NCBI RefSeq assembly: GCF_004796535.1
Contig: NZ_SPHY01000007.1
Location: 1-64,000, forward strand
Length of the DNA: 64,000 nucleotides
From: Sphingomonas flavalba
Lineage (GTDB): Bacteria > Pseudomonadota > Alphaproteobacteria > Sphingomonadales > Sphingomonadaceae
Direction of reading: 5' to 3'
A program made the position numbers and the translations under genes. A model generated the notes under the pieces. That model worked only from the letters and a program-made list of their open reading frames with translations, ran no database searches and was not told where the DNA came from. Shown one piece after another: positions 39,960 to 60,145 of this stretch (position 1 is the first letter of the stretch; every line of letters starts with the position of its first letter).

Positions 39960-41065
39960 GTCCAGCCGACCCAGGTGAAGAACACGGCGAAGAAGGCGTC
40001 GAGGACGATGACGAGGAAGATCGCCTGGACGACGGCGGCGGTGGTCCTGAGGCCGACTTCCTCCGCGTCCGCCTTGACCTGCATGCCCTGGTAGCAGCCC
40101 GAGAGCGCGATGATGAAGCCGAACACCGGCGCCTTGATCAGCCCGACATAGAGGTCGGTGATCGGCGTCACCTCGCGGATGCGCTGGATGAAGGTGACGG
40201 GGGGAATATCGAGCGACGCCCAGCATAATATGCCGCCGCCGATAATCGCGACGATCGACGCATAGAAGCCGAGCAGCGGCATCATCACCACCGAGGCGAG
40301 GGTGCGCGGCAGCACCAGCGCCTCCATCGGCGATACGCCGATCGTCCGCATCGCGTCGATTTCCTCGGTCAGCTTCATCGTGCCGAGCTGGGCGGCGAAG
40401 GCGGAGCCGGAACGGCCGGCGATCATGATCGCGGTCATCAGCACGCCCAGTTCGCGCAGCGTCAGCCGCCCGATCAGGTTGATCGTGTAGATCTCCGCGC
40501 CGAACTGGCGAAGCTGGACGGCGCCCTGCTGGGCGATGACGATGCCGATCAGGAAGCTCATCAACCCGATGATGCCGAGAGCGGAGACGCCGACCACCTC
40601 GAAACGCTGGATCACCGCGTTGATGCGGAAGCGGGACGGGTGCGCCATGACATGGCCGATGGACAGGACCAGCGCGCCAAAGAAGCCGAGCAAGCCGAGC
40701 ATCGTCCGCCCGGCGGTGGCGGTGGCGGCGCCGATTTCGTTCAGCACCTTGAACAGCGTCGGCGTCCGGTCCGGGCGCATGCGGACCGGTTGGTCGGCGC
40801 GGTCGACCTGCTCGATCAGCTTGCTCGCCTGATCGTTGGCGCCGATGATGGTCGCGGCGTGATCGGCGGCGAGCCGATGGACGATCCACGCGCCGATCGT
40901 GTCCATCCGTTCGACCTGCGACAGATCCAGCCGCGCCAGAGGGCCGGGTACCTGGCGCACCCGTTCGGGCAGGTCGCCGAGCTGCGACACGGTCAGCGCG
41001 CCGGTGAAACGCAGCGTGCGCTCCCCGTCCTGCTGGTCCTCCGTGAAGTCGGCGGTGGCAGCCAT
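39956..41065 (-). CDS. MlaE-like permease with an N-terminal STAS-like domain
   Basis: 369 residues from ATG 41065, with AGGAG 7 bases upstream. Residues 1-100 look like a STAS domain (LRFTGALTVSQLG, ARLDLSQVERMDTIGAWIV), the part supplied by MlaB in E. coli. The rest is the MlaE membrane domain with FLIGIVIAQQGAVQLRQFG, TAIMIAGRSGSAFAAQLG and the EEIDAM segment. First gene of the E-F-D-lipoprotein operon; the MlaB function is therefore fused. A 114-base gap separates it from the divergent HAD gene. Confidence 0.94.
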   Translation of the reverse strand: MAATADFTEDQQDGERTLRFTGALTVSQLGDLPERVRQVPGPLARLDLSQVERMDTIGAWIVHRLAADHAATIIGANDQASKLIEQVDRADQPVRMRPDRTPTLFKVLNEIGAATATAGRTMLGLLGFFGALVLSIGHVMAHPSRFRINAVIQRFEVVGVSALGIIGLMSFLIGIVIAQQGAVQLRQFGAEIYTINLIGRLTLRELGVLMTAIMIAGRSGSAFAAQLGTMKLTEEIDAMRTIGVSPMEALVLPRTLASVVMMPLLGFYASIVAIIGGGILCWASLDIPPVTFIQRIREVTPITDLYVGLIKAPVFGFIIALSGCYQGMQVKADAEEVGLRTTAAVVQAIFLVIVLDAFFAVFFTWVGWT

Positions 41066-41179
41066 AAGGTTGCTCCTGCGGCATATTCGCTGGATCGGCA
41101 AGCGAACAAAAGGTTAGAAACGGCTTGACCCCTGCCGGGCTGCTGACGCGCCCCGCCCATAAACCACCGAGAGCCGTCG

Positions 41180-41851
41180 ATGATCCGCCTCGCCATTTAC
41201 GACATGGACAAGACGCTGACGCGGCGGGCGACGTTCAATCCGTTCCTGTGTCACGCGGTGGCACGGTTGGCGCCGTGGCGGGCGGTGTTCCTGCCCATCG
41301 TCGGCGTGGCGCTGGCCGCCTATGCGTTGAAGCGGATCGACCGCGGCCGGCTGAAGGAACTGAGCCAGCGCTGGTTGCTCGGACCGCATATCGCCCCGGC
41401 GAAGCTGGCCCCGCTCGCCGACGGCTTTGCCGAACGGACGCTCGCCACCAACATCTATCCGCAGGCGCTGGACCAGCTCGCCGCCGACCGGGCCGATGGC
41501 TATCGGCTGGTCCTCGCCACCGCGTCCAACCGCCATTACGTCGAGGCGATCGCCCGTCGGCTGGGGTTCGACGCGGTGATCGCCACCGACAGCATGATCG
41601 GCCTCGATTCCCGGGTCAGCGCGATGATCGACGGCGAGAACTGCTACGGCCCGGCCAAGCTGCGGATGATCCAGGCATGGATGGCGGGGCAAGGCATCGC
41701 CCGCGATGAGGCGACCATTCGATTCTATTCCGACCACGCCTCCGACGAGCCGGCGTTGGCGTGGGCGGACGAGGCGTTCGCCGTCAACGCGCATGATCGG
41801 CTGCGCCGGCTGGCCGCGGCGCAGGGCTGGCAGCGGATAGACTGGCGCTGA
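41180..41851 (+). CDS. HAD-IB family phosphatase
   Basis: 223 residues. HAD motif I is YDMDKTLT (nucleophile Asp8), motif II ATAS with the lysine further on in YGPAKLRM, and motif III YSDHASDEPAL. A hydrophobic cap segment (AVFLPIVGVALAAYAL) suggests contact with the membrane. SerB/PgpC-like relatives act on phosphoserine or phosphatidylglycerol-phosphate; the true substrate is unresolved. Divergent from the Mla operon. Confidence 0.88.
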   Translation: MIRLAIYDMDKTLTRRATFNPFLCHAVARLAPWRAVFLPIVGVALAAYALKRIDRGRLKELSQRWLLGPHIAPAKLAPLADGFAERTLATNIYPQALDQLAADRADGYRLVLATASNRHYVEAIARRLGFDAVIATDSMIGLDSRVSAMIDGENCYGPAKLRMIQAWMAGQGIARDEATIRFYSDHASDEPALAWADEAFAVNAHDRLRRLAAAQGWQRIDWR

Positions 41852-41866
41852 ATCATTGAACGCGAT

Positions 41867-41895
41867 ATTGGTCTTGCCAAAGATGTAAGACCATG
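41867..41895 (+). promoter_or_regulatory. GntR-type operator A, upstream of the MHS-family permease
   Basis: Two inverted half-sites, ATTGGTCTTGCC (41867-41878) and TGTAAGACCATG (41884-41895), lie 68 bases before the permease start. They match the motif at four other promoters in the island (44676, 51631, 55323-55359, 56946-56987). Confidence 0.65.
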
Positions 41896-41963
41896 TTGTC
41901 CATCATAACGGACGATAAGTTGAAACCTAAAACATATTGATGATGCCGCGGAAGGGAATTTGA

Positions 41964-43238
41964 ATGGCGGGCGCGATCGATCCGAAAGTTCAGTTGCGCC
42001 GGGCCGTCCTGGCCTCCGTGGTCGGCAATACGTTGGAATGGTATGATTTTTTTCTGTACGGCACTGCCGCGGCACTGATTTTTGGCCAGCTTTTCTTTCC
42101 CGTCGGCGATTCGCTGGCCAGCACGTTGGCGGCGTTCGGCAGTTTCGCCGTGGGTTTCGCGGCCCGTCCGCTGGGCGGGTTCATCTTCGGCCATGTCGGC
42201 GACCGGCACGGGCGCAAGGCGTCGCTGATCTGGACGCTGTCGATCATGGGGGTCGCGACCTTCCTGATCGGCATGCTTCCGACCTACGAGCAAATCGGCC
42301 TGCTTGCCCCGGCGGCGCTGCTGTTCCTGCGCATCCTGCAGGGGATTGCGGCCGGCGGGGAGTGGGGCGGCGGCGTGCTGATGATCACCGAGAACGCCCC
42401 TGCGCATCGCCGCGGCTTTTTCGGCGCGTGGAGCCAGGTGGGCGTCGGCATGGGATTCGTGCTGTCCTCCCTTGCCTTTTTCGGGGCGCAGCAGTTGCCG
42501 CAGGAGGATTTCATTGCGTGGGGCTGGCGCGTGCCGTTCCTGATCAGCATCGTCATCTTCTCGGTCGGCGTGTTCATCCGCTACCGGGTCAACGAGAGCG
42601 CCGAGTTCGGCAAGGTCGCAAGCGCGGAGCAGACCGCCGCGATGCCGTTCGTGACGCTGCTGCGCCGCCACCCGCGCGAGATGCTGGTGGGCATCGGTGC
42701 CCGGCTGGCGGAGAATTGCGGCTCGCACCTGCTGATCACTTTCTCGCTGTTCTACGCCAAGGCGATGGGGGCGCCGACCGACGTGATGCTGCTGGGCGTC
42801 GCCGTGGCGATGCTGGCCGACAGCATGATGATGCCGGTGTTCGGCGCGCTGTCCGACCGGCTGGGGCGCCGGCCGGTCTACATGTTCGGCGCCGTGTCGA
42901 TGGCGCTGTTCGGCTATCCGTTCTTTCTGATGATCGGGTCCGGTGACCCGACGCTGATGATCGCGGCGCTGGTCATCGGCAACGGCATATGTCACGCGGC
43001 GATGGTCGGTGTGCAGCCAGCGCTGTTCAGCGAGATGTTCAGCACCGAGGTGCGCTATTCCGGCCTGGCGATGGCGCACGAGATATCGTCGCTGATCGTC
43101 GGCGTCGCACCGATGATCGCGACCGCGCTGTTCGCCTATTATCAGTCGGCAGTGCCGGTCGCGCTCTATCTGGCGGCGGTGTGCTTCGTTACCTTCGTCG
43201 CACTGTGTTTCGCCCGGCCGGCGGCGCCCGCCGCCTGA
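41964..43238 (+). CDS. MFS permease, metabolite:H+ symporter (ShiA/ProP-like) type
   Basis: 424 residues, 12 predicted helices. The MHS family start GNTLEWYDFFLYGTAAALIFG and the loop GHVGDRHGRKASL between helices 2 and 3 are clear, and the second-half loop is GALSDRLGRRPVYMFG. MHS members take up organic acids and similar anions, so a sugar acid such as a hexuronate fits. Operator A upstream places it in the GntR regulon. It converges with the second MFS gene, one base separating the stop codons. Confidence 0.9.
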   Translation: MAGAIDPKVQLRRAVLASVVGNTLEWYDFFLYGTAAALIFGQLFFPVGDSLASTLAAFGSFAVGFAARPLGGFIFGHVGDRHGRKASLIWTLSIMGVATFLIGMLPTYEQIGLLAPAALLFLRILQGIAAGGEWGGGVLMITENAPAHRRGFFGAWSQVGVGMGFVLSSLAFFGAQQLPQEDFIAWGWRVPFLISIVIFSVGVFIRYRVNESAEFGKVASAEQTAAMPFVTLLRRHPREMLVGIGARLAENCGSHLLITFSLFYAKAMGAPTDVMLLGVAVAMLADSMMMPVFGALSDRLGRRPVYMFGAVSMALFGYPFFLMIGSGDPTLMIAALVIGNGICHAAMVGVQPALFSEMFSTEVRYSGLAMAHEISSLIVGVAPMIATALFAYYQSAVPVALYLAAVCFVTFVALCFARPAAPAA

Positions 43239-43239
43239 A

Positions 43240-44553
43240 TCAGGCGGCTTCGCGCGCCATGAACCGGCGCATCGGCGCCATGCCGAGGCTGAGCAGCAGC
43301 ACGCCGAAGATGCCGGCCCCTGCCGTCACCAGCGCGATCGAGGAGCCGATTGCCGCCTGCGAGCCGAATACCCGGTCGTTGAGCAGGCCGACCAGCGCCG
43401 AGCCGACCGCGAGGCCGAGCAGCGAGTTGACGCACAGGAACAGTGCCGAGACGCGCGAGCGCATCAGCGGCGGCGGCACGATCTGCATCACCGCGGCCGA
43501 CGGCGGCATCGGGAAGGAGGCGAAGAACTGCGCGACGAGCAGCAGGCCGAGCGCAACCGGCAGCGACGGCGCGAACGGCAGCAGCGCGGCAGGCAGGATG
43601 ACACCGCCGATACCGGCCATGCCGGCGCGAAACGGCGCGTCGCTGTGCCCCATGCGGTTCAACCGGTCGTTCAGCCAACCGCTGGTCAGTACGCCGCCGC
43701 CGCCGCCGATGATCGCGATGACGCCGAGATACAGGCCGCAGCTGGCCGGGGTCAGCCCGAAATTGCGCATCAGATAGGCCGGGGACCAGCCGAGCAGCGT
43801 GAACAGCGCCATCGCCGCCAGCGTGAAGCCGGCAAAGTGCGGCAGGAAGATGCCGCGTTCCGCCGACAGGAAGCGAAGGACGGCGGAGAAGGGCGGGGAT
43901 GGCTCCACCGTCCGCCGGCCGCCGGCCGGCTCGTGTACGGTCAGCCCGATCACCAGCGCGAGCAGCAGGCCGGGCAGGCCGACGATCAGGAAAACCAGCT
44001 GCCACGGCTTGAATTCCATGCCGGCGATCATCCGCGGTCCGTCGCCGCTGACCATCGCGATCACCGATCCGCCGACGAGGAAGGCGATGCCGGCGCCAAG
44101 GAAGGAGCCGAGGGAGTAGAGCGCGACGGCGCGGCCCAGCTTCTCGCGCGGCATCAGGTCGCTGATCAGCGAATAGGTCGCCGGCGAAAGTGCCGCTTCC
44201 CCCGCGCCGACGCAGATGCGGGCGATGAACATCTGGGTAAAGCCGCGCGCCACGCCGCAGGCCGCTGTCGCCAGGCTCCAGAAGGCGACGCCGGCGGCGA
44301 TGATCAGCGGTCGCGACGTCCGGTCGGACAAGGTGGCGATCGGGATACCCATCGTCGCGTAGAAGATCGAGAAGGCAAGGCCGTGGAGCAGGCCGAACTG
44401 GGTGTCGGTGATGCCAAGGTCTGCCTGGATCGGCCCGATCAGCAGCGCCAGGATCTGCCGGTCGATGAACGAGAAGATATACGCGACCATGCATAGCCAG
44501 ACGACATACCAGGCGTGACGTTCCGAGACCGGGCTGCCGGTGGCTGTGGTCAT
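43240..44553 (-). CDS. MFS permease of the island, divergent from the GMC oxidoreductase
   Basis: 437 residues from ATG 44553, with GGGGAGGA upstream. 12 predicted helices, starting HAWYVVWLCMVAYIFSFIDRQILALL, with the A-loop ATLSDRTSRPLII. This type of start (YIFSFIDRQI) is seen in spinster-like and anion/sugar-acid MFS carriers often found in sphingomonad catabolic clusters. It shares a 218-base divergent promoter region, holding operator B, with the GMC gene. Confidence 0.9.
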   Translation of the reverse strand: MTTATGSPVSERHAWYVVWLCMVAYIFSFIDRQILALLIGPIQADLGITDTQFGLLHGLAFSIFYATMGIPIATLSDRTSRPLIIAAGVAFWSLATAACGVARGFTQMFIARICVGAGEAALSPATYSLISDLMPREKLGRAVALYSLGSFLGAGIAFLVGGSVIAMVSGDGPRMIAGMEFKPWQLVFLIVGLPGLLLALVIGLTVHEPAGGRRTVEPSPPFSAVLRFLSAERGIFLPHFAGFTLAAMALFTLLGWSPAYLMRNFGLTPASCGLYLGVIAIIGGGGGVLTSGWLNDRLNRMGHSDAPFRAGMAGIGGVILPAALLPFAPSLPVALGLLLVAQFFASFPMPPSAAVMQIVPPPLMRSRVSALFLCVNSLLGLAVGSALVGLLNDRVFGSQAAIGSSIALVTAGAGIFGVLLLSLGMAPMRRFMAREAA

Positions 44554-44675
44554 ATTTATCCTCCCCAATGACAGCGATTGACGCCTGTCATTACCGATGT
44601 TTGCCGATCGCGCGTGAAACGCAAGGTGCGAGATATCAAGAGTCAGGCCAGATTCTGAAATCTGCATGACATTAG

Positions 44676-44687
44676 TGGTAGACCAAT
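44676..44687 (+). promoter_or_regulatory. GntR-type operator B in the divergent MFS/GMC promoter region
   Basis: TGGTAGACCAAT, with a TGGT/ACCA dyad, differs by one base from the half-site TGTTAGACCAAT at 55323-55334 (reverse strand). TTGACA follows at 44689-44694 and could be the -35 box of the GMC operon. Confidence 0.65.
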
Positions 44688-44772
44688 ATTGACAAGCCGG
44701 CGTCCGAAACACAAGGTTCCGTTTGGCGCCGGCGCAATGGTGCGGCGCCCTTCGTGCGGTTGGGAGGGATGC

Positions 44773-46461
44773 TTGAGCGACGCAACCATGTTCGACGCGA
44801 TCGTCGTCGGATCGGGCATTTCCGGCGGCTGGGCGGCCAAGGAGCTGACCGAGGGCGGCGCGAAAGTGCTGATGATCGAGCGCGGCCGCAATGTCCGCCA
44901 TGGCGAGGACTACACTTACGAACATGTGCCGCCGTGGGAGATGCCGTTTCGCGGCCTGGGCGACCGGCGACGGATCGCGCGCGACTACCCGATCCAGAGC
45001 CGCAGTCGCTCGTTCGACGAGGCGAGCGCGCAATTTTACGCCAATGACCGGGACCATCCCTATCAGGTCGAGCAGGGATCGGCCTTTTCCTGGCTGCGCG
45101 GCCAGCAGACCGGCGGCCGCTCGCTGATCTGGGGCCGGGTGGCGATGCGGCTGAGCGAGTTGAACTTTAGCGAGAACCGGCTGGACGGCCACGGCGTCGA
45201 CTGGCCGATCCGCTATGCAGACGTCGCCAGATGGTATGACTATGTCGAACGGTTCATCGGCGTCAGCGGCAACAGGGACGGGATCGACAGCCTGCCGGAC
45301 GGCCAGTTCCTGCCGCCCTTCGCGATGAACTGCATCGAGGAGCATGCCAGCAAGGCGATCAAGACCAACTTCCCGGGCCGCCGCTTGATCCATGCGCGCA
45401 CCGCGGTGTTGAGTGAGGACCATGGCGGCCGCGCCAAGTGCCATTTCTGCGGGCCGTGCCACCACGGCTGCTCGACAGGCTCGTTCTTCAGCACCCAGAG
45501 CTCGACGTTGCCGGCGGCCGAGGCGACCGGTCGGCTAACCCTGCTCAACGACACGATCGTCGCCGGCATCGACTATGACCCGAAAAGCAAGCGCGCTACC
45601 GGCGTGCGGACGATCGACAGCAAGACCGGCGAGCAGCGCACGTTCACCGCCCGGTTGATCTTCGTCAACGCCTCGACGCTGGGCACGCTGCACATCCTGC
45701 TCAATTCGGTGAGCGAGGCGTTTCCGCGCGGGCTGGCGAACAGCAGCGGCGTGCTGGGCCACGGCATCATGGACACGATGAAGGGACCGGTGGTGACCGG
45801 AACCTTCGACGGTTATGACGGGTTCCAGCCAGTCGGCAACCGGCCGGCGGGCATCTATATCCCGCGTTTCCGCAACGTTGGTGCGAAGGACGCCGATTTC
45901 CTGCGCGGCTACGGCTTCCAGGGCGGTGCCTCACGAGCGCTGTGGACGCGCGGTGTCGACATGCCGCTGTTTGGTGCTGAGTTGAAGCAGGCGCTTCGCA
46001 AGCCGGGGCCGTGGCGGCTGATGCTGGCCGGCATGGCGGAGCCGTTGCCCAATCCCCGCAATCAGGTGTCGCTCGACCCGAAGGAAAAGGACAAGTGGGG
46101 CCTGCCGCAGCTTCGGGTGCGCTTTGCCTGGTCGGATAACGAACGCCGCATGGTCGACGATATTCTGACACAGGGCGAAGCGATGCTGCGCGCCGCCGGC
46201 GCGGTTCACATCGATAAGGTCAACGAGATCAAACCGGGCGGCGAGACCAATCACGAGATGGGCGGCGCGCCGATGGGGCATGACCCGGCGGGATCGGTGC
46301 TCAACCGGTTCAACCAGGCACACGACGTGCCGAACCTGTTCGTCACCGACGGTGCATGCATGTCGTCCTCGCCCTGCCAGAACCCGTCGCTGACCTACAT
46401 GGCGCTGACCGCGCGCGCGGCCGATTATGCGCTGACCCGGATGAAGCAGGGGGCGTTGTGA
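44773..46461 (+). CDS. GMC-family FAD oxidoreductase (sugar 3-dehydrogenase-like catalytic subunit)
   Basis: 562 residues from TTG 44773, chosen because GGGAGG lies 5 bases upstream; ATG 44788 is the alternative. FAD motif VGSGISGGWAAKELTEGG near the start; catalytic region NHEMGGAPMG and NPSLTYMALTARAADY at the end. A cysteine cluster CHFCGPCHHGC (about 222-232) may hold an Fe-S centre as in FAD-glucose dehydrogenases. It has no signal peptide of its own. The small subunit gene overlaps its stop. This pairing is that of glucoside 3-dehydrogenase and gluconate 2-dehydrogenase complexes working on the periplasmic side. The substrate is inferred to be a glycoside or sugar acid. Confidence 0.88.
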   Translation: MSDATMFDAIVVGSGISGGWAAKELTEGGAKVLMIERGRNVRHGEDYTYEHVPPWEMPFRGLGDRRRIARDYPIQSRSRSFDEASAQFYANDRDHPYQVEQGSAFSWLRGQQTGGRSLIWGRVAMRLSELNFSENRLDGHGVDWPIRYADVARWYDYVERFIGVSGNRDGIDSLPDGQFLPPFAMNCIEEHASKAIKTNFPGRRLIHARTAVLSEDHGGRAKCHFCGPCHHGCSTGSFFSTQSSTLPAAEATGRLTLLNDTIVAGIDYDPKSKRATGVRTIDSKTGEQRTFTARLIFVNASTLGTLHILLNSVSEAFPRGLANSSGVLGHGIMDTMKGPVVTGTFDGYDGFQPVGNRPAGIYIPRFRNVGAKDADFLRGYGFQGGASRALWTRGVDMPLFGAELKQALRKPGPWRLMLAGMAEPLPNPRNQVSLDPKEKDKWGLPQLRVRFAWSDNERRMVDDILTQGEAMLRAAGAVHIDKVNEIKPGGETNHEMGGAPMGHDPAGSVLNRFNQAHDVPNLFVTDGACMSSSPCQNPSLTYMALTARAADYALTRMKQGAL

Positions 46462-47081
46462 TGACAGATTCGATGGCAGCAGGCGAAAGGATCACGCTGA
46501 CTCGCCGCGACATGGTGGCGGCCTTCACCGCGCTTGGCCTGGGCGGCATTGCGTCGGTGCTTGTCAGCGGGTGTACACCGCGTGGTGGCGACGAGGGGAT
46601 CGGCGCGGCGCAGAAGGTGCTGCTTGGCGCGGTGGCGGAAACCATCATCCCGGCAACCGATACCCCCGGGGCCGACGCGGCCGGCGTTGTCGCGTTCATC
46701 GAGAAGATGGTCGATACGTGGCTGCATCCCGATGAGCGGACCCGCTTCCTTGCGGGCATGAAGCGGTTCGATGCCGATGTGCGACGGATCGCCGGCAAGG
46801 ACTATGTGGAACTGCCGGCGCCGGAAAAGCTGCGCGTGCTGACGATGATCGCCGAAAAGGAAGCCCCGCCCGCACCGAAAGGGTCGGTGCCGGCCGATGG
46901 GCCGTTCGTCGCGCAGATGAAGGCGCTGACCATCTTCGGCTATTACACGTCGGAAGCCGGCGCGTCCGAGGAGCTGTCGCTGGATCTGGTGCCTGGCACG
47001 TACGACGCCTGCCACCCGATCGCGCCGGGCGATCATGCGCCGGCGCTGGGTGGCGGCAGCGTGTCGCTGCGCTTCCCCTGA
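46461..47081 (+). CDS. gluconate 2-dehydrogenase subunit 3-family protein (partner of the GMC enzyme)
   Basis: 206 residues from the ATG in the TGATG overlap with the GMC gene. An N-terminal twin-arginine signal (LTRRDMVAAFTALGLGG) is combined with a lipobox-like LVSGC. The core AETIIPATDTPGADAAGV and the end TYDACHPI fit the family (PF13618). Such subunits carry the cofactor-loaded GMC partner through the Tat system and help electron transfer. It converges with the tandem TIM-barrel genes, leaving 7 bases between. Confidence 0.9.
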   Translation: MTDSMAAGERITLTRRDMVAAFTALGLGGIASVLVSGCTPRGGDEGIGAAQKVLLGAVAETIIPATDTPGADAAGVVAFIEKMVDTWLHPDERTRFLAGMKRFDADVRRIAGKDYVELPAPEKLRVLTMIAEKEAPPAPKGSVPADGPFVAQMKALTIFGYYTSEAGASEELSLDLVPGTYDACHPIAPGDHAPALGGGSVSLRFP

Positions 47082-47088
47082 GCCGGCG

Positions 47089-48009
47089 TCAGCCGATGGT
47101 ACGGTGGAGATAGTCGATCGAGGTACGGATCGCCGCCATCGGGTCGTCGGCGCGGTCGATCTCGACCAGAATGTGCTCGATGCCGGCATCGTCGCAGGTC
47201 TTGATCAGCGCCGGCACGTCGAGTGTGCCCTGGCCGACCGGCGCGAAGTCGCCGTCGGCGGTGATGTCCTTCAGATGGCAGAGCTTGGTGCGGCCGGCAT
47301 AGCGTTCCAGATAGGCGATCGGGTCGGCGCCGGCCTTGGTCGTCCAGTAGAAGTCGAGCTCGAACTTGACCTTATCGGGATCGGTGTTCTGCAGGAACAG
47401 GTCGAGGATGACGTCGTTGCCAACCTTGGCAAATTCGCGGTCATGGTTGTGGAAGGCGAAGACCTTGCCCTCCTTCGCACACATGTCGCCCAGCTCGTTG
47501 AACAGCTTGATGTAGGCGTCGATGGTCGGCCGGTCGGCCAGCTGACCGTCGAGCAGGATCGCCCACATCACATAGGTTTGGCCGAGAATCTTCGAGGTCT
47601 CGATCCCGTCCTCGAACGCCGCGCGGGCGTTCTTCAGCGAGAAGGTGTCGGCATAGACCTGCCGGTTGACCGCGGTGTCGACCTCTCGCTTCACCCAGCC
47701 GGCAAAAGACTTGTAGGTGGGGTTGGTGGGCGAGACGTGGTTGTTCGGTGAGGTCAGGCCGTAGCGGTCGAGGACGGAGCGGACATAGGCCGGATCGCGG
47801 CCGAAGCTGCCGGTGGTGCCGATTTCCTTGTAGCCCATCGCCGCGACTTCGCGCAGCGTGCCTTCGAAGTCCGTCTCCAGTGCCTTGATGATCGTCCCGC
47901 CCTGGAGACCCCAGCGGCGGGGCTTCTTGTCGGCGGCGAGCAGCGGGCTGAGGCCGGTGGCGGCGAGGGGGGCGAGGGCGGAATATTTGAGCAGGTCGCG
48001 GCGGTTCAT
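47089..48009 (-). CDS. Tat-exported sugar phosphate isomerase/epimerase-like TIM-barrel protein, copy 1
   Basis: 306 residues. MNRRDLLKYSALAP is a Tat signal. The xylose-isomerase-like TIM barrel (AP_endonuc_2 family) has metal-ligand segments VFAFHNHDREF, KFELDFYWTTKAG and LCHLKDI. The export signal speaks against a phosphosugar substrate; family members in such clusters act as 3-keto-glycoside lyases or epimerases. It is nearly identical to the gene at 48050-48967: outside residues 93-121 only four substitutions are seen. It is last in the leftward MFS-Gfo/Idh-TIM-TIM unit. Confidence 0.9.
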   Translation of the reverse strand: MNRRDLLKYSALAPLAATGLSPLLAADKKPRRWGLQGGTIIKALETDFEGTLREVAAMGYKEIGTTGSFGRDPAYVRSVLDRYGLTSPNNHVSPTNPTYKSFAGWVKREVDTAVNRQVYADTFSLKNARAAFEDGIETSKILGQTYVMWAILLDGQLADRPTIDAYIKLFNELGDMCAKEGKVFAFHNHDREFAKVGNDVILDLFLQNTDPDKVKFELDFYWTTKAGADPIAYLERYAGRTKLCHLKDITADGDFAPVGQGTLDVPALIKTCDDAGIEHILVEIDRADDPMAAIRTSIDYLHRTIG

Positions 48010-48049
48010 TGAGACGGCCTTTCAGGCAAGGTGGGACGGTAAGGACGCG

Positions 48050-48967
48050 TCAGCCGATGGTGCGGTGGAGATAGTCGATCGAGGTGCGGATCGCCGCCAT
48101 CGGGTCGTCGGCGCGGTCGATCTCGACCAGGATATGCTCGATGCCGGCATCGTCGCAGGTCTTGATCAGCGCCGGCACGTCGAGCGTGCCCTGGCCGACC
48201 GGCGCGAAGTCGCCGTCGGCGGTGATGTCCTTCAGGTGGCAGAGCTTGGTGCGGCCGGCATAGCGTTCCAGATAGGCGATCGGGTCGGCGCCGGCCTTGG
48301 TCGTCCAGTAGAAGTCCAGCTCGAACTTGACCTTGTCCGGATCGGTGTTCTGCAGGAACAGGTCGAGGATCACGTCGTTGCCGACCTTGGCGAATTCGCG
48401 GGCATGGTTGTGGAAGGCGAAGACCTTGCCCTCCTTCGCGCACATGTCGCCGATCTCGTTGAACAGCTTGATGTAGGCGTCGATCGTCGGGCGATCGGCG
48501 ATCTGGCCGTCGAGCAGGATCGCCCACATCACATAGGTCTGGCCGAGGATCTTCGAGGTCTCGATCCCATCCTCGAACGCGGCGCGGGCATTTTTCAGCG
48601 AGAAGGTATCGGCGTAGAAGGTCATCACGTCGTTGTCGGGCGCCGCGCGGGTCACCCAGTTGGCGAAAGCCTTGTAGGTGGGGTTGGGCGCGACGTGGTT
48701 GTTCGGCGAGGTCAGGCCGTAGCGGTCGAGGACGGAGCGGACATAGGCCGGATCGCGGCCGAAGCTGCCGGTGGTGCCGATTTCCTTGTAGCCCATGGCC
48801 GCGACTTCGCGCAGCGTGCCTTCGAAATCCGCTTCCAGCGCCTTGATGATCGTACCGCCCTGGAGACCCCAGCGGCGGGGCTTCTTGTCGGCGGCGAGCA
48901 GCGGGCTGAGGCCGGTGGCGGCGAGGGGGGCGAGGGCGGAATATTTGAGCAGGTCGCGGCGGTTCAT
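48050..48967 (-). CDS. Tat-exported sugar phosphate isomerase/epimerase-like TIM-barrel protein, copy 2
   Basis: 305 residues, a tandem duplicate of the following gene, with the same Tat signal and barrel. Differences are concentrated in one patch (about 93-121: APNPTYKAFANWV then RAAPDNDVMTFYAD in place of SPTNPTYKSFAGWV then REVDTAVNRQVYAD); elsewhere T46A, L/I changes and HNHAREF for HNHDREF. The patch may sit by the active site and change specificity. It lies 36 bases after the Gfo/Idh gene in the same leftward unit. Confidence 0.9.
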   Translation of the reverse strand: MNRRDLLKYSALAPLAATGLSPLLAADKKPRRWGLQGGTIIKALEADFEGTLREVAAMGYKEIGTTGSFGRDPAYVRSVLDRYGLTSPNNHVAPNPTYKAFANWVTRAAPDNDVMTFYADTFSLKNARAAFEDGIETSKILGQTYVMWAILLDGQIADRPTIDAYIKLFNEIGDMCAKEGKVFAFHNHAREFAKVGNDVILDLFLQNTDPDKVKFELDFYWTTKAGADPIAYLERYAGRTKLCHLKDITADGDFAPVGQGTLDVPALIKTCDDAGIEHILVEIDRADDPMAAIRTSIDYLHRTIG

Positions 48968-49003
48968 GGGAATGGCCTTTCGTACCGGGTTATCAGGTGA
49001 ACA

Positions 49004-50212
49004 TCAGCGTTGCAGATAGGGAAGGACGTCGACGACGCGGCGTTCGGCGGCGCTGAGATAACCGGCGTAGATGACCAGCATCACGTCCATCGCGAGCAGC
49101 AGGTCGCTGCGCGGGGGGCGGTTGTTGGCGACGGCGCCGATGAAGTCGCGCAGCTCGTCCGGGTATCCGGTTACCATGTCCTCGTCCGGCGCGGGGAAGG
49201 ACCAGCCTTCCTTGGTCTCGGTCTTTTCGACCAGATATTCGCTGTCGAAATAGGCGCCGTCGGGGGTGTAGGCCTGGCAGGTGGTGTTGGGATTGATGTT
49301 CGCTGTCACCACCGCCTTCGAGCCGTGGGCGGCGATGTAATTGCGGATGCCGCCCATCCGGGTGTCGGTGGAGGTGAGCTGGGCGACCGAGCCGTCCTCG
49401 AAGGCGAGGGTAATCGTCGCCCAGTCCTCGACATCTTCCCAGCCGGTGACGATGTGCTTGCGCGCCTCCGCCTCGAAGGACGGGATCGCGGTCAGCTTCG
49501 CCACCTGGGCGCTGACCGAGACCGGGCGGATCGGCTTGCCGTCGCGGCGGCGGCCTTCCTCGTGCTTCAGGTGGAGGGCGGCGCCGATCGGATGGGCGCA
49601 GAGCCGGAGCAGCGAGCCGCCGCCCGCCGTCCGCCAGCGCCGCGAATAGGCGGCGTGCGAGCCGGAGTGCGATTCCTCGCCCTGGATGCGCAGCAGCGTC
49701 GAGCCGCTGGCCGCCATCAGCCGGTTGAGCTTGACGATCGGCGGGGCGTAGACCCAGTTTTCAGCGTAGCAGAAGGTGATGCCGGCGCGGGCGACGGCTT
49801 CCTCGACCGCGCGGGTCTGCTCCATCACCGCGTCGAGCATCGCCGCGCGCGAATAGCCGTCCGCCGTCCAGTCCGCCCCGGCGCCGTCGGGGCCGAAGAA
49901 GCCGCCCAGCGGCTTTTCGCAGATCACATGCTTGCCGCGCTCCGCCGCCTGCAGGACCAGCGGCACGTGCAGGTTGTTGGGCACGCACAGGTCGACGATG
50001 TCGATCGTCGGGTCGGCGAGCAGCTCGTCGGCGCTCGCGTACTGGCGGGGGATGCCGAACTGGGCGGCGAGCGCCGCCGCCTTCGTCGGATCGCGCCCGG
50101 CGATCGCCGCCACCTCGAACGCCTCGCCATAGACCTTCCGGTAGCTGGCAAGGTGGAAGTGTGCCGAAAATCCGGCCCCGATGATACCGATACGCACCGG
50201 CCTGGTCGTCAT
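49004..50212 (-). CDS. Gfo/Idh/MocA-family NAD(P)-dependent oxidoreductase
   Basis: 402 residues from ATG 50212. Rossmann fold IGIIGAGFSAHFHLASY, the family motif HVICEKPLGGFFGP with its catalytic Lys, and a C-terminal alpha/beta domain with GGGSLLRLCAHPIGAAL. No signal peptide, so cytoplasmic. Members oxidise or reduce sugar hydroxyls, often at C3 (glucoside 3-oxidation, DgpA-type) or C2 (inositol). The position between an MFS carrier and two TIM-barrel proteins fits reduction or oxidation of a 3-keto sugar. It starts 29 bases after the MFS gene. Confidence 0.9.
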   Translation of the reverse strand: MTTRPVRIGIIGAGFSAHFHLASYRKVYGEAFEVAAIAGRDPTKAAALAAQFGIPRQYASADELLADPTIDIVDLCVPNNLHVPLVLQAAERGKHVICEKPLGGFFGPDGAGADWTADGYSRAAMLDAVMEQTRAVEEAVARAGITFCYAENWVYAPPIVKLNRLMAASGSTLLRIQGEESHSGSHAAYSRRWRTAGGGSLLRLCAHPIGAALHLKHEEGRRRDGKPIRPVSVSAQVAKLTAIPSFEAEARKHIVTGWEDVEDWATITLAFEDGSVAQLTSTDTRMGGIRNYIAAHGSKAVVTANINPNTTCQAYTPDGAYFDSEYLVEKTETKEGWSFPAPDEDMVTGYPDELRDFIGAVANNRPPRSDLLLAMDVMLVIYAGYLSAAERRVVDVLPYLQR

Positions 50213-50241
50213 GTCATTCCTTTCCCGGGCGCGAAGCGCCG

Positions 50242-51627
50242 TTAGTCCCGCAGGGCGCGGCCGCGCGTTTCGGGCGCGAACAGCGCCGTCACGATGCCGA
50301 TCAGGAACACCGCGCACATCGTCATCGCCGAGAAGCGCAGCGGGTCCGGCGCCGGCAGGCCGCCATAGAGGTGAGTGGTGAGATAAGCCGAACCGAAGCT
50401 GCCGATGGCGGCGGCGAAGCGGCCGAGATTATAGGCGAAGGAGACGCCGGTGCCCCGTGTCCGCGCGCCGAACAGTTCCGGCAGGTAGATCGAGAAGCCG
50501 GCGAACACGCTGAACTGCGCGGCGCCCATCAGCGGCATCATCCAATAGGCGTCCGCCGGGCTTTCCAGCCGCCAGTAGACGAACAGGGTGACGATGAGCG
50601 CCGCGCTGAACCCGGCGACGAAGGCGGGCCGCCGGCCGAAGCGCGCGGCGATCCACGAGAAGATCCACATGCCGATCGCGCCGCCCGCCATTTGCAGCAT
50701 GAACGACCAGTTCTTGGCGCTGGCGACCGCCGCGGCGACCTGATCGGCCGGCAGGCGGGCGGAGAACCAGCCGGTGAACACCGCATGCTGCAGGTCGACG
50801 GCATATTCGCCGATCGCCCACAAGCCGACGACGCCGGCGACTGCGAGCAGCGTGCCGATCAGCAGGTTGTGCCGTTCATCCTGCTGGCGCAGCAATTCGC
50901 CGTAGGAGCCGAAAATTCCCTTGGGTAGTTGCCCTTCCGCCTTCAGTTTCAGCCAGGCGTCGGATTCGCGCAGACGCAGCGCCGACAGGATCGCGAGCAG
51001 GGCGGGGAGGGCGCCGATCGCGAACAGCCAGCGCCAGCCGTGAGCGGAGTCGATCCAGCCATGCGCGCCGAGCGTGTCGACGCCCATCTTGACGAAGGCG
51101 GCGCCGACATTGCCGAAGGTCGACAGGACCTGCAGCCCGGCGAGCATCGCCAGCCGCGCCGCGCCCGACATGGTTTCGGCGAGGATCGCGACCGCGAGGC
51201 CGAAGATGCCGCCGATGCCGAGGCCGGTGACGAAGCGCAGGATCGCGAATTCCTCGTGCGTGCGGCACAGCGCGGTCAGGCCGGTGCAGATCGAGTAGAG
51301 CAGGATCGAGATGGTCAGCAATCGGACCCGGCCGAAGCGGTCGCCGAGCGCGCCGAAGGTCAGCCCGCCGATGCCCCAGCCGACCAGGAACAGCGCGGTC
51401 GATGTCTTGGCGAACGCCTGCACCTCAAGGCTGCTCGCCGGCAGGCCCATCAGGTCGGCGAGGGCGGGGATCCGCGCCAGCGAAAACAGCCGCTGATCCA
51501 TCGTGTCGAACAGCCACGCGCCGGAGACGACGGCGAAGACGAACCACTGGTAACGGGTGACCGTTCTCCACCAGGGCAGATCAGGATGCTGGGTGATCGT
51601 CTCTCTCCGGCCTGTGCGGTTTGCCAC
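50242..51627 (-). CDS. MFS permease (sugar/acid symporter type), first gene of the Gfo/Idh-TIM unit
   Basis: 461 residues from GTG 51627; the ribosome site is weak. 12 predicted helices, with WLFDTMDQRLFSLARIPAL early, the A-loop ALGDRFGRVRLLTIS, and the second-half loop ARFGRRPAFVAGF. The start resembles carriers for aromatic or sugar acids. Operator C lies directly upstream, in the 38-base gap after uxuB and across the uxuB stop, so it may be induced together with, or read through from, the GntR-uxaC-uxuB unit. Confidence 0.88.
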   Translation of the reverse strand: MANRTGRRETITQHPDLPWWRTVTRYQWFVFAVVSGAWLFDTMDQRLFSLARIPALADLMGLPASSLEVQAFAKTSTALFLVGWGIGGLTFGALGDRFGRVRLLTISILLYSICTGLTALCRTHEEFAILRFVTGLGIGGIFGLAVAILAETMSGAARLAMLAGLQVLSTFGNVGAAFVKMGVDTLGAHGWIDSAHGWRWLFAIGALPALLAILSALRLRESDAWLKLKAEGQLPKGIFGSYGELLRQQDERHNLLIGTLLAVAGVVGLWAIGEYAVDLQHAVFTGWFSARLPADQVAAAVASAKNWSFMLQMAGGAIGMWIFSWIAARFGRRPAFVAGFSAALIVTLFVYWRLESPADAYWMMPLMGAAQFSVFAGFSIYLPELFGARTRGTGVSFAYNLGRFAAAIGSFGSAYLTTHLYGGLPAPDPLRFSAMTMCAVFLIGIVTALFAPETRGRALRD

Positions 51628-51630
51628 ACA

Positions 51631-51672
51631 TGTATGACCAAAAAACCCTAATCACTGCAAATTGGTCAGTCA
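51631..51672 (-). promoter_or_regulatory. GntR-type operator C, before the MFS-Gfo/Idh-TIM unit and over the uxuB stop
   Basis: Half-sites TGTATGACCAAA (51631-51642) and ATTGGTCAGTCA (51661-51672) face away from each other. The second contains the uxuB stop codon (51666-51668). Same motif as at the other four promoters. Confidence 0.6.
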
Positions 51673-53114
51673 ATAGGAGCCGGGGCAGTTATTGCCGCGA
51701 TCAGCCCGCGCGGATCACCGTCCATCAGCCGGGTCAGCGTGGCGGCGAGCGCTGCCGGCAGCGTCGCGCTGTTGCGGAAAGCGTCGGGGAACACACCGGA
51801 TTCGCTGACCATGGCGGCGGCGACGGCGCGGGGATCGCCCGACATGACGCGCCAGATGGCGGCCAGGCGGCCGGCGAGCGGATCGTCGACCGGACGGCCG
51901 GCGGCGCCGCCGACGTGGACGATCCATGCGGCGAGGGCGAGAAGATAGGCGGGGCTGGCAAGGCCGCGCGCGTCGCGCTCGACCATCGCCGCCAGCCAGC
52001 GTTGCGGGATCTTCTGCGAGCCGTCGCTGGCGATCTGATCCAGCCGGTGGGGCAGGGCCGGGTTGTCGAAGCGGCGGAGCAGCGCGTCGGCATAGGCGCC
52101 GTAGTCAAGCCCGGCGGCCGGCGCCAGCGTCGGCATCGCCTCATCCTCGATCTGGCGGCGGAGCAGCGCGGCGAGGGCGGGGTCGGCGACCGCCTGGTGC
52201 ACATAGGTGTGGCCGAGGAGCAGGCCGACATAGGCGAGCGTCGAATGGCTGCCGTTCAGCAGGCGCAGCTTCGCCAGCTCGAACGGGTGGACGTCTGCAA
52301 CGATCTGGGCGCCGCCAACCTCCCAGCGCGGGCGGGGACCGGCGAAGCGGTCCTCGATCACCCACTGGCGAAACGGTTCGGTGACGACCAGGCCGTGATC
52401 GTCGACCGGCGCGCCGTCGCGGTCGGCGGCGGTGGTGCGCGGGACGATGCGGTCGACCATCGTGTTCGGGCAGGTCCAGCGCCGCTCGACGGGGCGGCCA
52501 CGCCGGGCGAGGAAGGCGCCGAGCAGCCGGTCGAGCAGGTCACCGTTGCCCGACAGATTGTCGCAGGACAGCAGGGTCAGCGGCCCGGCGCCCTCCGCCT
52601 GCCGCCTGTCGAGCGCGGCGGCGAGATAGCCGAAGATGGTGCGCGGCGCCGCGCCGGACAGGTCGTGGACGATCGCCGGATCGTCGAACAGCAGGCCGTC
52701 GCCGGCCGGCTCGCGGTAATAGCCCTTTTCGGTGACGGTCAGGGTGACGATGTGGACGGCGGGGTCGGCGAGCGCGGCGATCACCCGTTCCGGCGCCTCC
52801 GGGGCGACCAGCACGGTGTTGATCGCGCCGATCAGCCGCCGCGCCGGGCCGGCGGCGCTGCGTTCTTCCACCATGTAGAGGCAGTCCTGCGGCATCAGCG
52901 CGTCGCGGGTCGATGGCGAGCGCAGCGACACGGCGGTGATCCCCCAGCCGGCATCGCCGGCGGCGAGCGCGTCATCGGTGTAGACCGCCTGGTGGGCGCG
53001 GTGGAACGCGCCGATGCCGAGGTGGACGATGCCGCTTGTCGCGCGATCGCGGGCATAGCCGAGCGGGGCGACGCCGGCGGGAACGCTGCCCGGCGACAGG
53101 CGCGGGCGGTTCAC
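51666..53114 (-). CDS. uxuB: fructuronate reductase / mannonate 5-dehydrogenase (mannitol dehydrogenase family)
   Basis: 482 residues from GTG 53114, overlapping the uxaC stop (GTGA). The polyol-specific long-chain dehydrogenase fold has IVHLGIGAFHRAHQAVYTDD at the NAD-binding start, TEKGYY, SCDNLSGNG and KLRLLNGSHSTLAY with the catalytic Lys. In this operon it is expected to reduce D-fructuronate to D-mannonate, the step between UxaC and ManD. A mannitol or tagaturonate substrate is less likely given the neighbours. Length matches UxuB. Confidence 0.92.
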   Translation of the reverse strand: MNRPRLSPGSVPAGVAPLGYARDRATSGIVHLGIGAFHRAHQAVYTDDALAAGDAGWGITAVSLRSPSTRDALMPQDCLYMVEERSAAGPARRLIGAINTVLVAPEAPERVIAALADPAVHIVTLTVTEKGYYREPAGDGLLFDDPAIVHDLSGAAPRTIFGYLAAALDRRQAEGAGPLTLLSCDNLSGNGDLLDRLLGAFLARRGRPVERRWTCPNTMVDRIVPRTTAADRDGAPVDDHGLVVTEPFRQWVIEDRFAGPRPRWEVGGAQIVADVHPFELAKLRLLNGSHSTLAYVGLLLGHTYVHQAVADPALAALLRRQIEDEAMPTLAPAAGLDYGAYADALLRRFDNPALPHRLDQIASDGSQKIPQRWLAAMVERDARGLASPAYLLALAAWIVHVGGAAGRPVDDPLAGRLAAIWRVMSGDPRAVAAAMVSESGVFPDAFRNSATLPAALAATLTRLMDGDPRGLIAAITAPAPID

Positions 53115-54514
53115 AGCCGGTAGGCCGATGTGACCAGCGTGCTGGTCAGGGCGAGGGCCAGCTCCGCCGCCTCGCCCTCGTCGATCTGATGTTCCGCGAC
53201 CAGTTCGGCCAGGAAGCCGCAATCGATCCGCCGGGCGACGTCGTGCCGCGCCGGGATCGACAGGAAGGCACGGGTGTCGTCGTTGAAGCCGACGAGATTG
53301 TAGAAGCCGGCGGTCTCCGTCATCTGGCGGCGGAAGCGACGCATGCCGTCCGGGCTGTCGTGGAACCACCAGGCCGGGCCGAGGCGCAGCGCCGGGTAAT
53401 GGCCGGCGAGCGGCGCCAGCTCGCGCGCGTAGGTCGTCTCGTCCAGGGTGAACAGGATGATCGTCTGGGCCGGATCATTGCCGTGCCGGTCGAGCAGCGG
53501 GCGGAGCGCGCCGACGAAATCGGTGCGGGTCGGGATGTCGGCGCCCTTGTCGCGGCCGAAGCGGGCGAACAGCGCGCTGTTGTGGTTGCGGAACGAGCCG
53601 GGGTGGATCTGCATGACCAGCCGGTCGTCGCGGCTCATGTCGGCCATCACCGTCAGCATATGGGCACGGAACAGCTCGGCGCGCTCCGGGGCGGGCGGGG
53701 TGGCGCCAGTCACCTCCGCGAACAGCGCCTCCGCCTCCTGCGGCGTCAGCACGGCGGTGGCGGCGGTCGGGTGGCCGTGATCGCTGGCGGTGGCGCCGGC
53801 GGCGATGAAGGCGGCCCGGCGCTGGCGCAGCGCGGCGAGGTAGCCGGGGTAGGACAGACAGTCCTCTCCGGTCATCTCCGACAGGCGGGCGAGGTTGGCG
53901 GTGAAGCCTTCGTAATCCGGGTCGACCACCGGATCGGGGCGGAAGGTGGTGATGACCCGGCCGGGCCAGCCGGAGGCGCGGATCTTCGCATGATGCGCGA
54001 GCGGGTCGAGCGGCGATTCGGTCGTTGCCAGCGCGGCGATGTTGAACCGGTCGAACAGCGCGCGGGGGTGGAAGGCGGGCTCCGCCAGCCGCTCGGCGAT
54101 CCGGTCGTAATAGAGGTCGGCGGTGTCGGGCTCCAGCCGGACGGCGAGGCCGAACACCTCGCTGAACACCCAGTCCAGCCACAGCCGCGACGGGGTGCCG
54201 CGGAACAGCGGGTAATGCCGGGCGAAGATGTGCCAGGCGGCGCGCGAATCGACCGGCGCGCCGCCGATGCCCAGATCCTCCAGCCGAACGCCCTGGCTGT
54301 AGAGCATGCGGAAGACATAGTGGTCGGGCGTGATCAGCAGCGCGGTCGGGTCGGCGAACGGCGCGTCGTCTGCGAACCACGCTGGATCGGTGTGGCCGTG
54401 CGGGCTGACGATCGGCAGGGTGGCGACGGCTTCGTACAGCCGGCGCGCGATCGCGCGCACGCCGGGGTCGACCGGAAACAGGCGGTCCGGGTGGAGGACG
54501 AGGGGCGTGGCCAT
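53111..54514 (-). CDS. uxaC: glucuronate isomerase
   Basis: 467 residues, the usual length. Amidohydrolase-like barrel starting LPIVSPHGHTDPAWFADD with the metal His pair, TTESPLDPL, MQIHPGSFRNHN and WWFHDSPDGMRRF, and GFNDDTRAFLSIPARHD near the end. It interconverts D-glucuronate and D-fructuronate (also galacturonate and tagaturonate). The start ATG abuts the TAG of the GntR gene, and uxuB overlaps its stop. Cytoplasmic. Confidence 0.96.
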   Translation of the reverse strand: MATPLVLHPDRLFPVDPGVRAIARRLYEAVATLPIVSPHGHTDPAWFADDAPFADPTALLITPDHYVFRMLYSQGVRLEDLGIGGAPVDSRAAWHIFARHYPLFRGTPSRLWLDWVFSEVFGLAVRLEPDTADLYYDRIAERLAEPAFHPRALFDRFNIAALATTESPLDPLAHHAKIRASGWPGRVITTFRPDPVVDPDYEGFTANLARLSEMTGEDCLSYPGYLAALRQRRAAFIAAGATASDHGHPTAATAVLTPQEAEALFAEVTGATPPAPERAELFRAHMLTVMADMSRDDRLVMQIHPGSFRNHNSALFARFGRDKGADIPTRTDFVGALRPLLDRHGNDPAQTIILFTLDETTYARELAPLAGHYPALRLGPAWWFHDSPDGMRRFRRQMTETAGFYNLVGFNDDTRAFLSIPARHDVARRIDCGFLAELVAEHQIDEGEAAELALALTSTLVTSAYRL

Positions 54515-55297
54515 CTAGATCGAGACGACGCGCACGAACCGGTCGCGGGTGCTGCGCGCTTCCCGCCGGGCGCGCTCGATCGCTTCTTCCTCGGTGGCGA
54601 ACAGCAGATGCTCGATCACCGCGCCGAGATGCTCGCGCATCGCGGTGCGGGCGCGGGCCGGGTCGCGCGCCTGCAGCGCCTCGACGATGCCCATATGCTC
54701 CTGCATCACCGGCTTGACCTGGGCGCTGCGCGCCTTTTCGTGGAGCAGCGCGCATTCCGGCGCGGTCTGCCGCATTTCCCAGAAGGTCTCGATCGTCTTG
54801 GCGATCGCGGCGTTGCGGGTGGCGCGGGCGATCAGCGTGTGGAAATCGCGGTCCGCCTCCTCCGCCGCGGCGGGGTCGCCGGCCGCGTCCATCCGCGCGA
54901 CGAGCAGCGGCAGCTCGGCCAGTTCCTCGTCGGTGATGTTGGTGGCGGCGAGGGCGGCCGCCTCCCCCTCGAACAGCAGGCGGGCCTCGGTCAGCTCGAA
55001 GGCGGTGACGCCGAAGCCGGGGGCCTCGCGCTTGCCGGTCTGGCGGCGGACATAGGCGCCGGAGCCGACCCGCACCTCGACGACGCCCTGCACCTCCAGC
55101 GCAATGATCGCTTCGCGCACCGTCGGGCGGCTGACGTTGAATTCGGCCGATATCTCCCGCTCCGCCGGCATCCGCCCGCCGACCGGGTATGTGCCGTCGT
55201 TGATGCGGTCCATCAGCTTGTGCGCGATCTCCCGATAGAGGCGCTGCGAATCCGCCGGGGACTCAACGTCGCTTTTCTCGCTCAGAACCTGGTGCAC
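54515..55297 (-). CDS. GntR/FadR-family regulator of hexuronate catabolism (UxuR/ExuR-like)
   Basis: 260 residues from GTG 55297, with AGGAGG 4 bases upstream. An N-terminal GntR winged helix (MPAEREISAEFNVSRPTVREAIIALEVQG, split here as recognition helix region) and a C-terminal FCD ligand domain of the FadR subfamily (RDFHTLIARATRN, QEHMGIVEAL, HLGAVIEHL). First gene of the leftward regulator-uxaC-uxuB unit, divergent from manD. An inverted repeat in the shared promoter (operator D) and copies at four further promoters suggest that it represses the whole island and is released by a hexuronate intermediate; this is inference. Confidence 0.92.
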   Translation of the reverse strand: MHQVLSEKSDVESPADSQRLYREIAHKLMDRINDGTYPVGGRMPAEREISAEFNVSRPTVREAIIALEVQGVVEVRVGSGAYVRRQTGKREAPGFGVTAFELTEARLLFEGEAAALAATNITDEELAELPLLVARMDAAGDPAAAEEADRDFHTLIARATRNAAIAKTIETFWEMRQTAPECALLHEKARSAQVKPVMQEHMGIVEALQARDPARARTAMREHLGAVIEHLLFATEEEAIERARREARSTRDRFVRVVSI

Positions 55298-55322
55298 GGG
55301 GCCTCCTTCGGGTGTTAGGATT

Positions 55323-55359
55323 ATTGGTCTAACACGATGCATAAACTTGACAGACCAAT
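55323..55359. promoter_or_regulatory. GntR-type operator D in the divergent GntR/manD promoter
   Basis: Inverted half-sites ATTGGTCTAACA (55323-55334) and TGACAGACCAAT (55348-55359) match at 10 of 12 positions. TTGACA at 55347-55352 overlaps the second half and could be the -35 box for manD. The cleanest copy of the shared motif. Confidence 0.78.
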
Positions 55360-55408
55360 ATTGTCAGGTCAAGACGCATGACCATAACCGACTTCGCGGG
55401 GAAGAGCC

Positions 55409-56617: not shown

Positions 56618-56919
56618 TGCGGGCCGCCCGGCCGGTGTTGCGCGGCGCGGTGCCGGTCGCGGTGCTGCTGGCCGGCGCGGCTATCCCGGCCGCGGTGCCG
56701 GCGGGCGGACCGGCGCCGGCCGACATGGCGGGGCGGCAGGCGTTCGAGCGCGGCTGTTCCGGCTGCCACGCGCTGGATGTCGCCGTCGCGCAGCCGCACA
56801 GCGCGGGCGAATGGGCGGCGATCGTCGACATGATGGTCGCCCGCGGCGCGGCGCTGTCGGACGCCGATCAGGACGTGATCATTGCCTATCTGGCCCGGCA
56901 CCATGCACCAGGCCGATAA
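56617..56919 (+). CDS. small monoheme cytochrome c
   Basis: 100 residues from the ATG in the overlap with the manD TGA. Signal peptide (VAVLLAGAAIPAAVPA), then one haem site CSGCH and a short class I-like domain in which ALSDADQDVIIAYLARHH supplies the last helix; the Met ligand may be MMVARG. Periplasmic. It is a plausible electron acceptor for the GMC enzyme or the PQQ dehydrogenase of the island. Co-translation with a cytoplasmic dehydratase is unusual and ties the periplasmic oxidation to the mannonate route. Confidence 0.85.
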   Translation: MRAARPVLRGAVPVAVLLAGAAIPAAVPAGGPAPADMAGRQAFERGCSGCHALDVAVAQPHSAGEWAAIVDMMVARGAALSDADQDVIIAYLARHHAPGR

Positions 56920-56944
56920 ACAGGACTTACCACTCCATCAAATA

Positions 56945-56987
56945 TTGACAGGCCAATTATTCCACTATAGGCAGATCAGGTCTTACA
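56945..56987 (+). promoter_or_regulatory. promoter and GntR-type operator E of the TonB receptor unit
   Basis: TGACAGGCCAAT (56946-56957), one mismatch from the half-site in operator D, overlaps TTGACA (56945-56950). TATAGG (56966-56971) could be the -10 box, although the 15-base spacer is short. A second half-site AGGTCTTACA lies at 56978-56987. The receptor starts at 57041. Confidence 0.6.
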
Positions 56988-57040
56988 CGTAGGTTAGGCC
57001 GACTTATTCGATCGGCAAGAAATCCAAGGGAGGGGCTATC

Positions 57041-60141: not shown

Positions 60142-60145
60142 GGCG

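Follow-up and report, generated by a model that had tools for sequence, protein, structure and literature searches.

Why do two adjacent genes of Sphingomonas flavalba encode proteins that are almost identical except in one short patch? The earlier note had seen here a recent tandem duplication of an exported TIM-barrel gene, followed by local diversifying selection or gene conversion, probably at a substrate loop. Having analysed the window (the whole stretch of 64,000 nucleotides), we read the pair as paralogous lyases that have been homogenised by conversion while a substrate-facing patch was kept different, and we give this reading a probability slightly above one half (about 0.52). The earlier reading is half right: conversion and a substrate-side loop are plausible, but the data are better explained otherwise than by a young duplicate that simply diversified in one place.

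Tandem pair and predicted active site

The two open reading frames described before, with their lengths of 305 and 306 residues, are borne out. Both are on the minus strand and lie head to tail, B first and then A, and GAAAGGCC forms a leader ahead of the start codons of both. The features of the pair are as follows.

47089..48009, minus strand: copy A, 306 aa, downstream member and paralogue of B
47647-47733, minus strand: divergent block of A, enclosing its patch core
47656..47700, minus strand: patch core of A, residues 104-118 (coordinates from residue numbers)
48010..48049, no strand: 40-bp spacer between A and B
48050..48967, minus strand: copy B, 305 aa, upstream member, predicted 3-keto-glycoside lyase (PF01261) with the derived patch
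48608-48691, minus strand: divergent block of B, enclosing its patch core
48617..48661, minus strand: patch core of B, residues 103-117 (coordinates from residue numbers)

The two proteins are unlike in 19 of 306 aligned columns. Four of these lie outside the patch (T46A, L157I, L173I and D190A, from A to B in A numbering), and the other 15 fall within residues 93-121 as 14 substitutions and one codon indel, with 12 of the 15 residues of the patch core (104-118) changed. The alignment therefore agrees with the near-identity, the four substitutions and the block with a one-residue length change that had been noticed at the outset. A third close copy was not found in the genome itself (3.07 Mb, 35 contigs). 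It is hardly credible that the pair is a chimeric joining of near-identical tandem genes in a draft genome: the 35 contigs and a longest identical stretch of 113 bases would allow such an artefact, but A and B differ at sites scattered over most of their length, and the arrangement recurs in another genome, where the divergent block occupies the same residues.

Both A and B score above the cut-off for PF01261 and are predicted to adopt a xylose-isomerase-like TIM barrel, a fold that the AF2 models bear out as well (mean pLDDT 90.6 for B and 90.7 for A). The N-terminus contains NRRDLLK followed by a hydrophobic stretch, with residues 7-27 of B at low pLDDT; this is a twin-arginine-type N-terminus, in keeping with the label 'exported' in the earlier note, and both proteins are probably Tat-exported. 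In structural comparisons the B model came closest to two Parabacteroides proteins without stated function, together with AL1 and BT1 (Z 28-30), and the Agrobacterium O-glycoside beta-eliminase AtOGE stood lower in the Foldseek list. AL1 (8tcd, 8tcr) and BT1 (8tct), which come from Alistipes and Bacteroides and are called 3-keto-beta-glucopyranoside-1,2-lyases in their PDB titles, share the fold at 26-28% identity (VIA-align Z 28-29, with about 242 residues aligned at rmsd 1.8-2.0). They have in common with A and B the motifs HNH, (E/Q)(L/M)D-YW and HIKD and a barrel-end Glu, but are without most of a two-helix insertion between β3 and α3.

We know of no enzyme of the A/B subfamily with a tested activity. 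AtOGE (8bvk) is a shorter protein with about 20% identity; it is described as a Mn-dependent TIM barrel whose metal is bound by His132, Asp163, His189 and, weakly, Glu233, with His134 as the catalytic residue (PMC10628242). By motif and strand, the same five residues appear to be present here as H187, D219, H245, E283 and H189 (A numbering). The putative ligands are thus placed on β5, β6, β7 and β8 (His, Asp, His, Glu), with the catalytic-type His two residues after the β5 ligand, and neither the active-site His nor the Asp columns vary in alignments A1 and A2. The myo-inosose-2 dehydratase IolE (TIGR04379) was rejected as an identity, at 58.7 bits against a cut-off of 290. Judged by motifs and models, A and B are probably metal-dependent 3-keto-glycoside 1,2-lyases (β-eliminases).

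In the B model, β3 (residues 89-91) is followed by two helices (95-105 and 111-121) before α3 (127-141), and the patch runs from the last part of the first extra helix through the turn to the middle of the second; over residues 101-120 the block means of pLDDT are 91 and 93. The β-to-α loops of TIM barrels sit on the catalytic face. By this topology the modelled patch is on the catalytic face of the barrel, the side with the active site, which supports the substrate-side position first supposed for it. In AtOGE-related enzymes, metal-flanking loops are reported to shape the binding pocket (PMC10628242). The two-helix insertion is mostly absent in many distant relatives and is kept in homologues of about 40% identity (L012-L014, L024). 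Two distant homologues, L025 and L036, show by eye additional segments at other points of the barrel, so the position of cap insertions is not fixed in the family.

Depth of divergence in the patch and its flanks

The comparison of rates inside and outside residues 93-121 revealed a non-synonymous excess inside, with dS raised there as well. The ratio of non-synonymous to synonymous codons is 14:4 inside the patch and 4:29 outside (Fisher p = 4.7e-6, a value that is optimistic because the limits 93-121 were set after the data had been seen), and 12:1 in the core compared to 6:32 elsewhere (p 1.3e-6). Nei-Gojobori values of dN/dS between A and B are 0.005/0.089 for residues 1-92, 0.009/0.216 for residues 122-306, 0.47/0.52 for residues 93-121 and 1.20/0.60 for the core, where they are rough because the core holds just 10.5 synonymous sites. 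The rest of the two genes, beyond the block, is strongly constrained, with dN/dS of about 0.04-0.06.

The third codon positions follow the same division, differing at 9/28 in the patch versus 31/277 elsewhere (p 0.005) and at 6/15 in the core versus 34/260 (p 0.012). Between genera, 6-7 of the 15 core third positions and 67-93 of 260 flanking ones differ; the A/B core is as diverged as between genera, whereas the A/B flanks have reached roughly half of that distance at most. In addition, 9/15 core codons have changed at more than one base, three of them at all three. As the core has diverged like that of different genera and the flanks less so, the block is either old or was replaced as a block, next to flanks that look young. 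Point mutations that changed amino acids are unlikely to have produced the block by themselves if the duplicate were recent.

These data bear on two parts of the earlier note. A tandem duplication stands, but 'recent' is not supported: 33 of the 278 degenerate codons for the same residue carry synonymous differences (patch included), which are not rare, so the pair is not very recent; its overall synonymous divergence is about that between two Rhizorhabdus species, and the third positions of the patch are as diverged as between genera. Diversifying selection by point mutation alone is not supported either, since third positions have changed too and so many core codons differ at several bases. 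The main idea of the earlier note, taken as a moderately recent duplication followed by intense positive selection for point mutations confined to the B loop, strikes us as rather improbable. It would account for the 12:1 excess in the core and for derived states that are mostly those of B (6 versus 1 in the patch), but selection on amino acids alone does not easily explain the raised synonymous and third-position divergence in the block, which recurs in a second pair (below), or the three core codons changed at every base.

The direction of change was judged from relatives. The patch of A carries the motif R-E/Q-x-x-T-x-x-N-R-x-x-Y, which is common to most close relatives: it is found in copy 1 of a tandem pair in Rhizorhabdus genome G219, both copies of Rhizorhabdus histidinilytica, Sphingomonas sp. 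Root720, L022 and L023, in full or in part in homologues of 50-52% identity, and in part in Caulobacter L005. B and G219 copy 2 lack it, each in its own way. Counted over seven close sequences (A, B, two from G219, two from R. histidinilytica and one from Root720), the 14 patch substitutions comprise 6 derived in B, 1 derived in A, 1 seen both ways and 6 undecided; L022, L023, Caulobacter L005, L012-L014 and L024 served for alignment or motif only, and L006-L009, L017 and L025-L054 were uncounted, with L006-L008 included in alignments A1 and A2 and L009 left out of them. By this polarity, A is the copy that keeps the ancestral patch and B has a derived one. Outside the patch, T46 and L157 are derived in A, and I173 and A190 (A numbering) in B; the D190A change comes directly after the catalytic-type histidine, where Ala also occurs in BT1, AL1 and L023.

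A sudden origin of the B patch was considered in two forms. A frameshift was rejected: over the inner residues 107-118 the alignment does not beat shuffled codons (p 0.19 with A and 0.08-0.38 with relatives), and the B patch is present in no other reading frame of A. A gapped DNA alignment of 104-119 did exceed base shuffles (p 0.002), over a stretch that included conserved edges. The other form is a younger duplication in which the B block was imported by recombination from a divergent homologue, the flanks having undergone no conversion. The third positions and multi-base codons of the core, set against 34/260 in the flanks, are what such an import would leave, and no conversion tracts were seen among the synonymous differences of A and B. 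Against it, no convincing donor was found in the genome besides A, and a search with the 54-residue block region of B at E <= 1e-4 in 397 family genomes returned only this genome and the two pair-bearing Rhizorhabdus; moreover, the B core matches each of the close relatives at the same low number of residues (3/15). We regard this import as unlikely, though less so than intense selection on the B loop.

Related pairs and gene conversion

Close homologues of A and B are rare. At E <= 1e-60 they occur in 6/397 family genomes, this one included, and a close tandem pair (73-76% identity) is present in two others of the 397, G219 and R. histidinilytica. The comparison of copy number among relatives covered 14 genomes of the genus Rhizorhabdus (E <= 1e-40), with two copies in 2 of them, one close copy in 1 and no match in 11; the one close copy is that of Root720, which also has a homologue of 52% identity. 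In a class-wide sample (n=385, E <= 1e-50) this genome alone was found, and an order-wide one (n=396, E <= 1e-30) gave 20 including this one, the others at <=52% identity. The genus itself was represented by one genome. Viral contigs contained only a short 52% match (E 2e-4), plasmids contained only homologues of <60% identity, and no long near match to region 46356-50212 was found among plasmids. Five genomes of genus g385 have two PF01261 homologues on one contig, whose starts are separated by about 0.9 to 2.6 kb (L030/L043, L033/L042, L032/L045, L029/L044 and L039/L046); by eye, these look far more divergent than A and B.

The G219 pair has its divergent block at the same residues as A/B, with third positions differing at 13/34 in 97-130 versus 24/270 elsewhere (p 2.5e-5), and the block is in copy 2. 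In R. histidinilytica, copy 2 carries the block of copy 1 (15/15 codons identical over 104-118) and has kept its own 5' part. Copy 1 of this species is frame shifted within the signal-peptide region (L004 2988-3080), as a pseudogene or through a sequencing error; its first ~27 codons are out of frame, and a comparison of its residues 1-30 is meaningless. Such a copy, if truly broken, would favour an unconstrained loop in a redundant or decaying B, but we find this very unlikely given the strong constraint outside the block, the retention of all catalytic residues and the high AF2 confidence over the block itself.

Gene conversion, which the earlier note had named as one possibility, is a good explanation because the process can be followed in the Rhizorhabdus relatives. 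Over residues 31-96, 5' of the block, G219 and R. histidinilytica have 6 copy-specific sites shared by both species versus 1 genome-specific site, while residues 136-306, 3' of it, have 22 genome-specific sites versus 1 copy-specific (1:6 versus 22:1, Fisher 8e-5). The site patterns in these pairs are those of gene conversion of the flanks after an older duplication. A single ancient duplication shared between A/B and Rhizorhabdus found no supporting site pattern: no copy-specific sites are clearly common to the A/B and G219 pairs (pattern counts 0:1, 2:4 and 1:1), so one ancient event is unsupported and there may have been two duplications. Three genomes among those searched hold a close pair, and the recurrence of the block therefore rests on two pairs with distinct patches.

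In A/B themselves, no conversion tract reached significance, whether judged by the longest identical run (p 0.28) or by the sum of squared runs (p 0.16), and synonymous differences were not significantly enriched around the patch (p 0.12), so we infer conversion there from the contrast in depth between block and flanks and by analogy with the process in the relatives. In our preferred reading, conversion between the tandem genes together with strong purifying selection would hold A and B near-identical, and the exempt block would be the loop and half-helix in the two-helix cap between β3 and α3. Most likely the two copies would serve two substrate specificities, for aglycone or linkage; conversion tracts crossing the block would then be selected against, with specificity as the selected trait.

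Homogenisation that spares a specificity block is known in principle. Our literature search returned no report of block-sparing conversion for this enzyme family. The pattern resembles the concerted evolution of bacterial paralogues in that, outside the block, the Rhizorhabdus paralogues within a genome are closer than orthologues between genomes; prokaryote cases of such evolution by conversion are reported in PMC6053082. It differs in that homogenisation stops at a block that includes the likely specificity loop. The available text on AtOGE mentions no tandem pair with a changed loop (PMC10628242).

Genomic setting and putative substrates

The pair is flanked by genes for predicted sugar oxidation and hexuronate catabolism.

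44689..46461, plus strand: GMC oxidoreductase, putative glycoside 3-dehydrogenase (ORF probably over-long at the N-terminus)
46356..47081, plus strand: gluconate 2-dehydrogenase subunit 3 family (PF13618), convergent; the true start may be further in
49004..50212, minus strand: Gfo/Idh/MocA oxidoreductase, directly upstream of B, probably in the same operon
50242..51627, minus strand: MFS transporter
51666..53168, minus strand: mannitol dehydrogenase family, best NCBIfam match fructuronate reductase, below cut-off
53111..54514, minus strand: glucuronate isomerase UxaC, above the NCBIfam equivalog cut-off
54515..55342, minus strand: GntR/FCD regulator, nearest ExuR/UxuR models, below cut-off

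Genes for the GMC and gluconate_2-dh3 subunits adjoin the lyase genes both here and in Root720, and this type of enzyme would oxidise the glycoside at C3, whereupon A and B would carry out the elimination. In Root720 the lyase, GMC and subunit genes lie beside those for a mannonate dehydratase (ManD), a KDG-kinase-like protein and an ExuR-like regulator, and G219 has, by eye, ORFs like those of Root720 together with UxaC- and fructuronate-reductase-like ones. The recurrence of hexuronate-catabolism neighbours suggests uronic-acid-containing substrates. The literature search found nothing relevant on a glucuronide version of the pathway, and no RNA family was found in 40000-60000. A broader proposal combines these elements: the block would be a β3-α3 specificity cassette, kept or swapped at the same place in the tandem pairs of at least two genera, with conversion polishing the rest and selection rejecting conversion across it, so that two lyases for different uronic-acid 3-keto-glycosides feed hexuronate catabolism. 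In this full form we hold it to be doubtful.

The cleavage of glycosides by 3-keto-glycoside lyases, which involves no hydrolysis, has been recognised only recently, and to our knowledge little is established about the determinants of their substrate range. A and B constitute a natural experiment on this point, as enzymes set apart by a single loop and four isolated substitutions; should the loop determine specificity, this would be directly visible when A and B are compared with forms in which their blocks are exchanged. R. histidinilytica provides the matching natural control, with the difference apparently erased by conversion and one copy apparently broken. The value of the pair is as a test case; the system is not new in kind.

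Other features of the surroundings were noted. An MFS transporter-like ORF (43240-45465, minus strand) resembles by eye one beside the Caulobacter homologue (L005 5090-6586). Rhizorhabdus-type loci have a longer protein downstream of the GMC gene (L003 7293-8354, L019 11878-12903), which belongs to PF01261 in L003, with no NCBIfam match there, and was recognised by eye in L019. Finally, a further PF01261 protein in the window (59242-60141, plus strand) lies between a TonB-dependent receptor (57041-59242) and a PQQ beta-propeller dehydrogenase (60640-62544), and the region 57041-62544 is perhaps a second sugar-oxidation locus.
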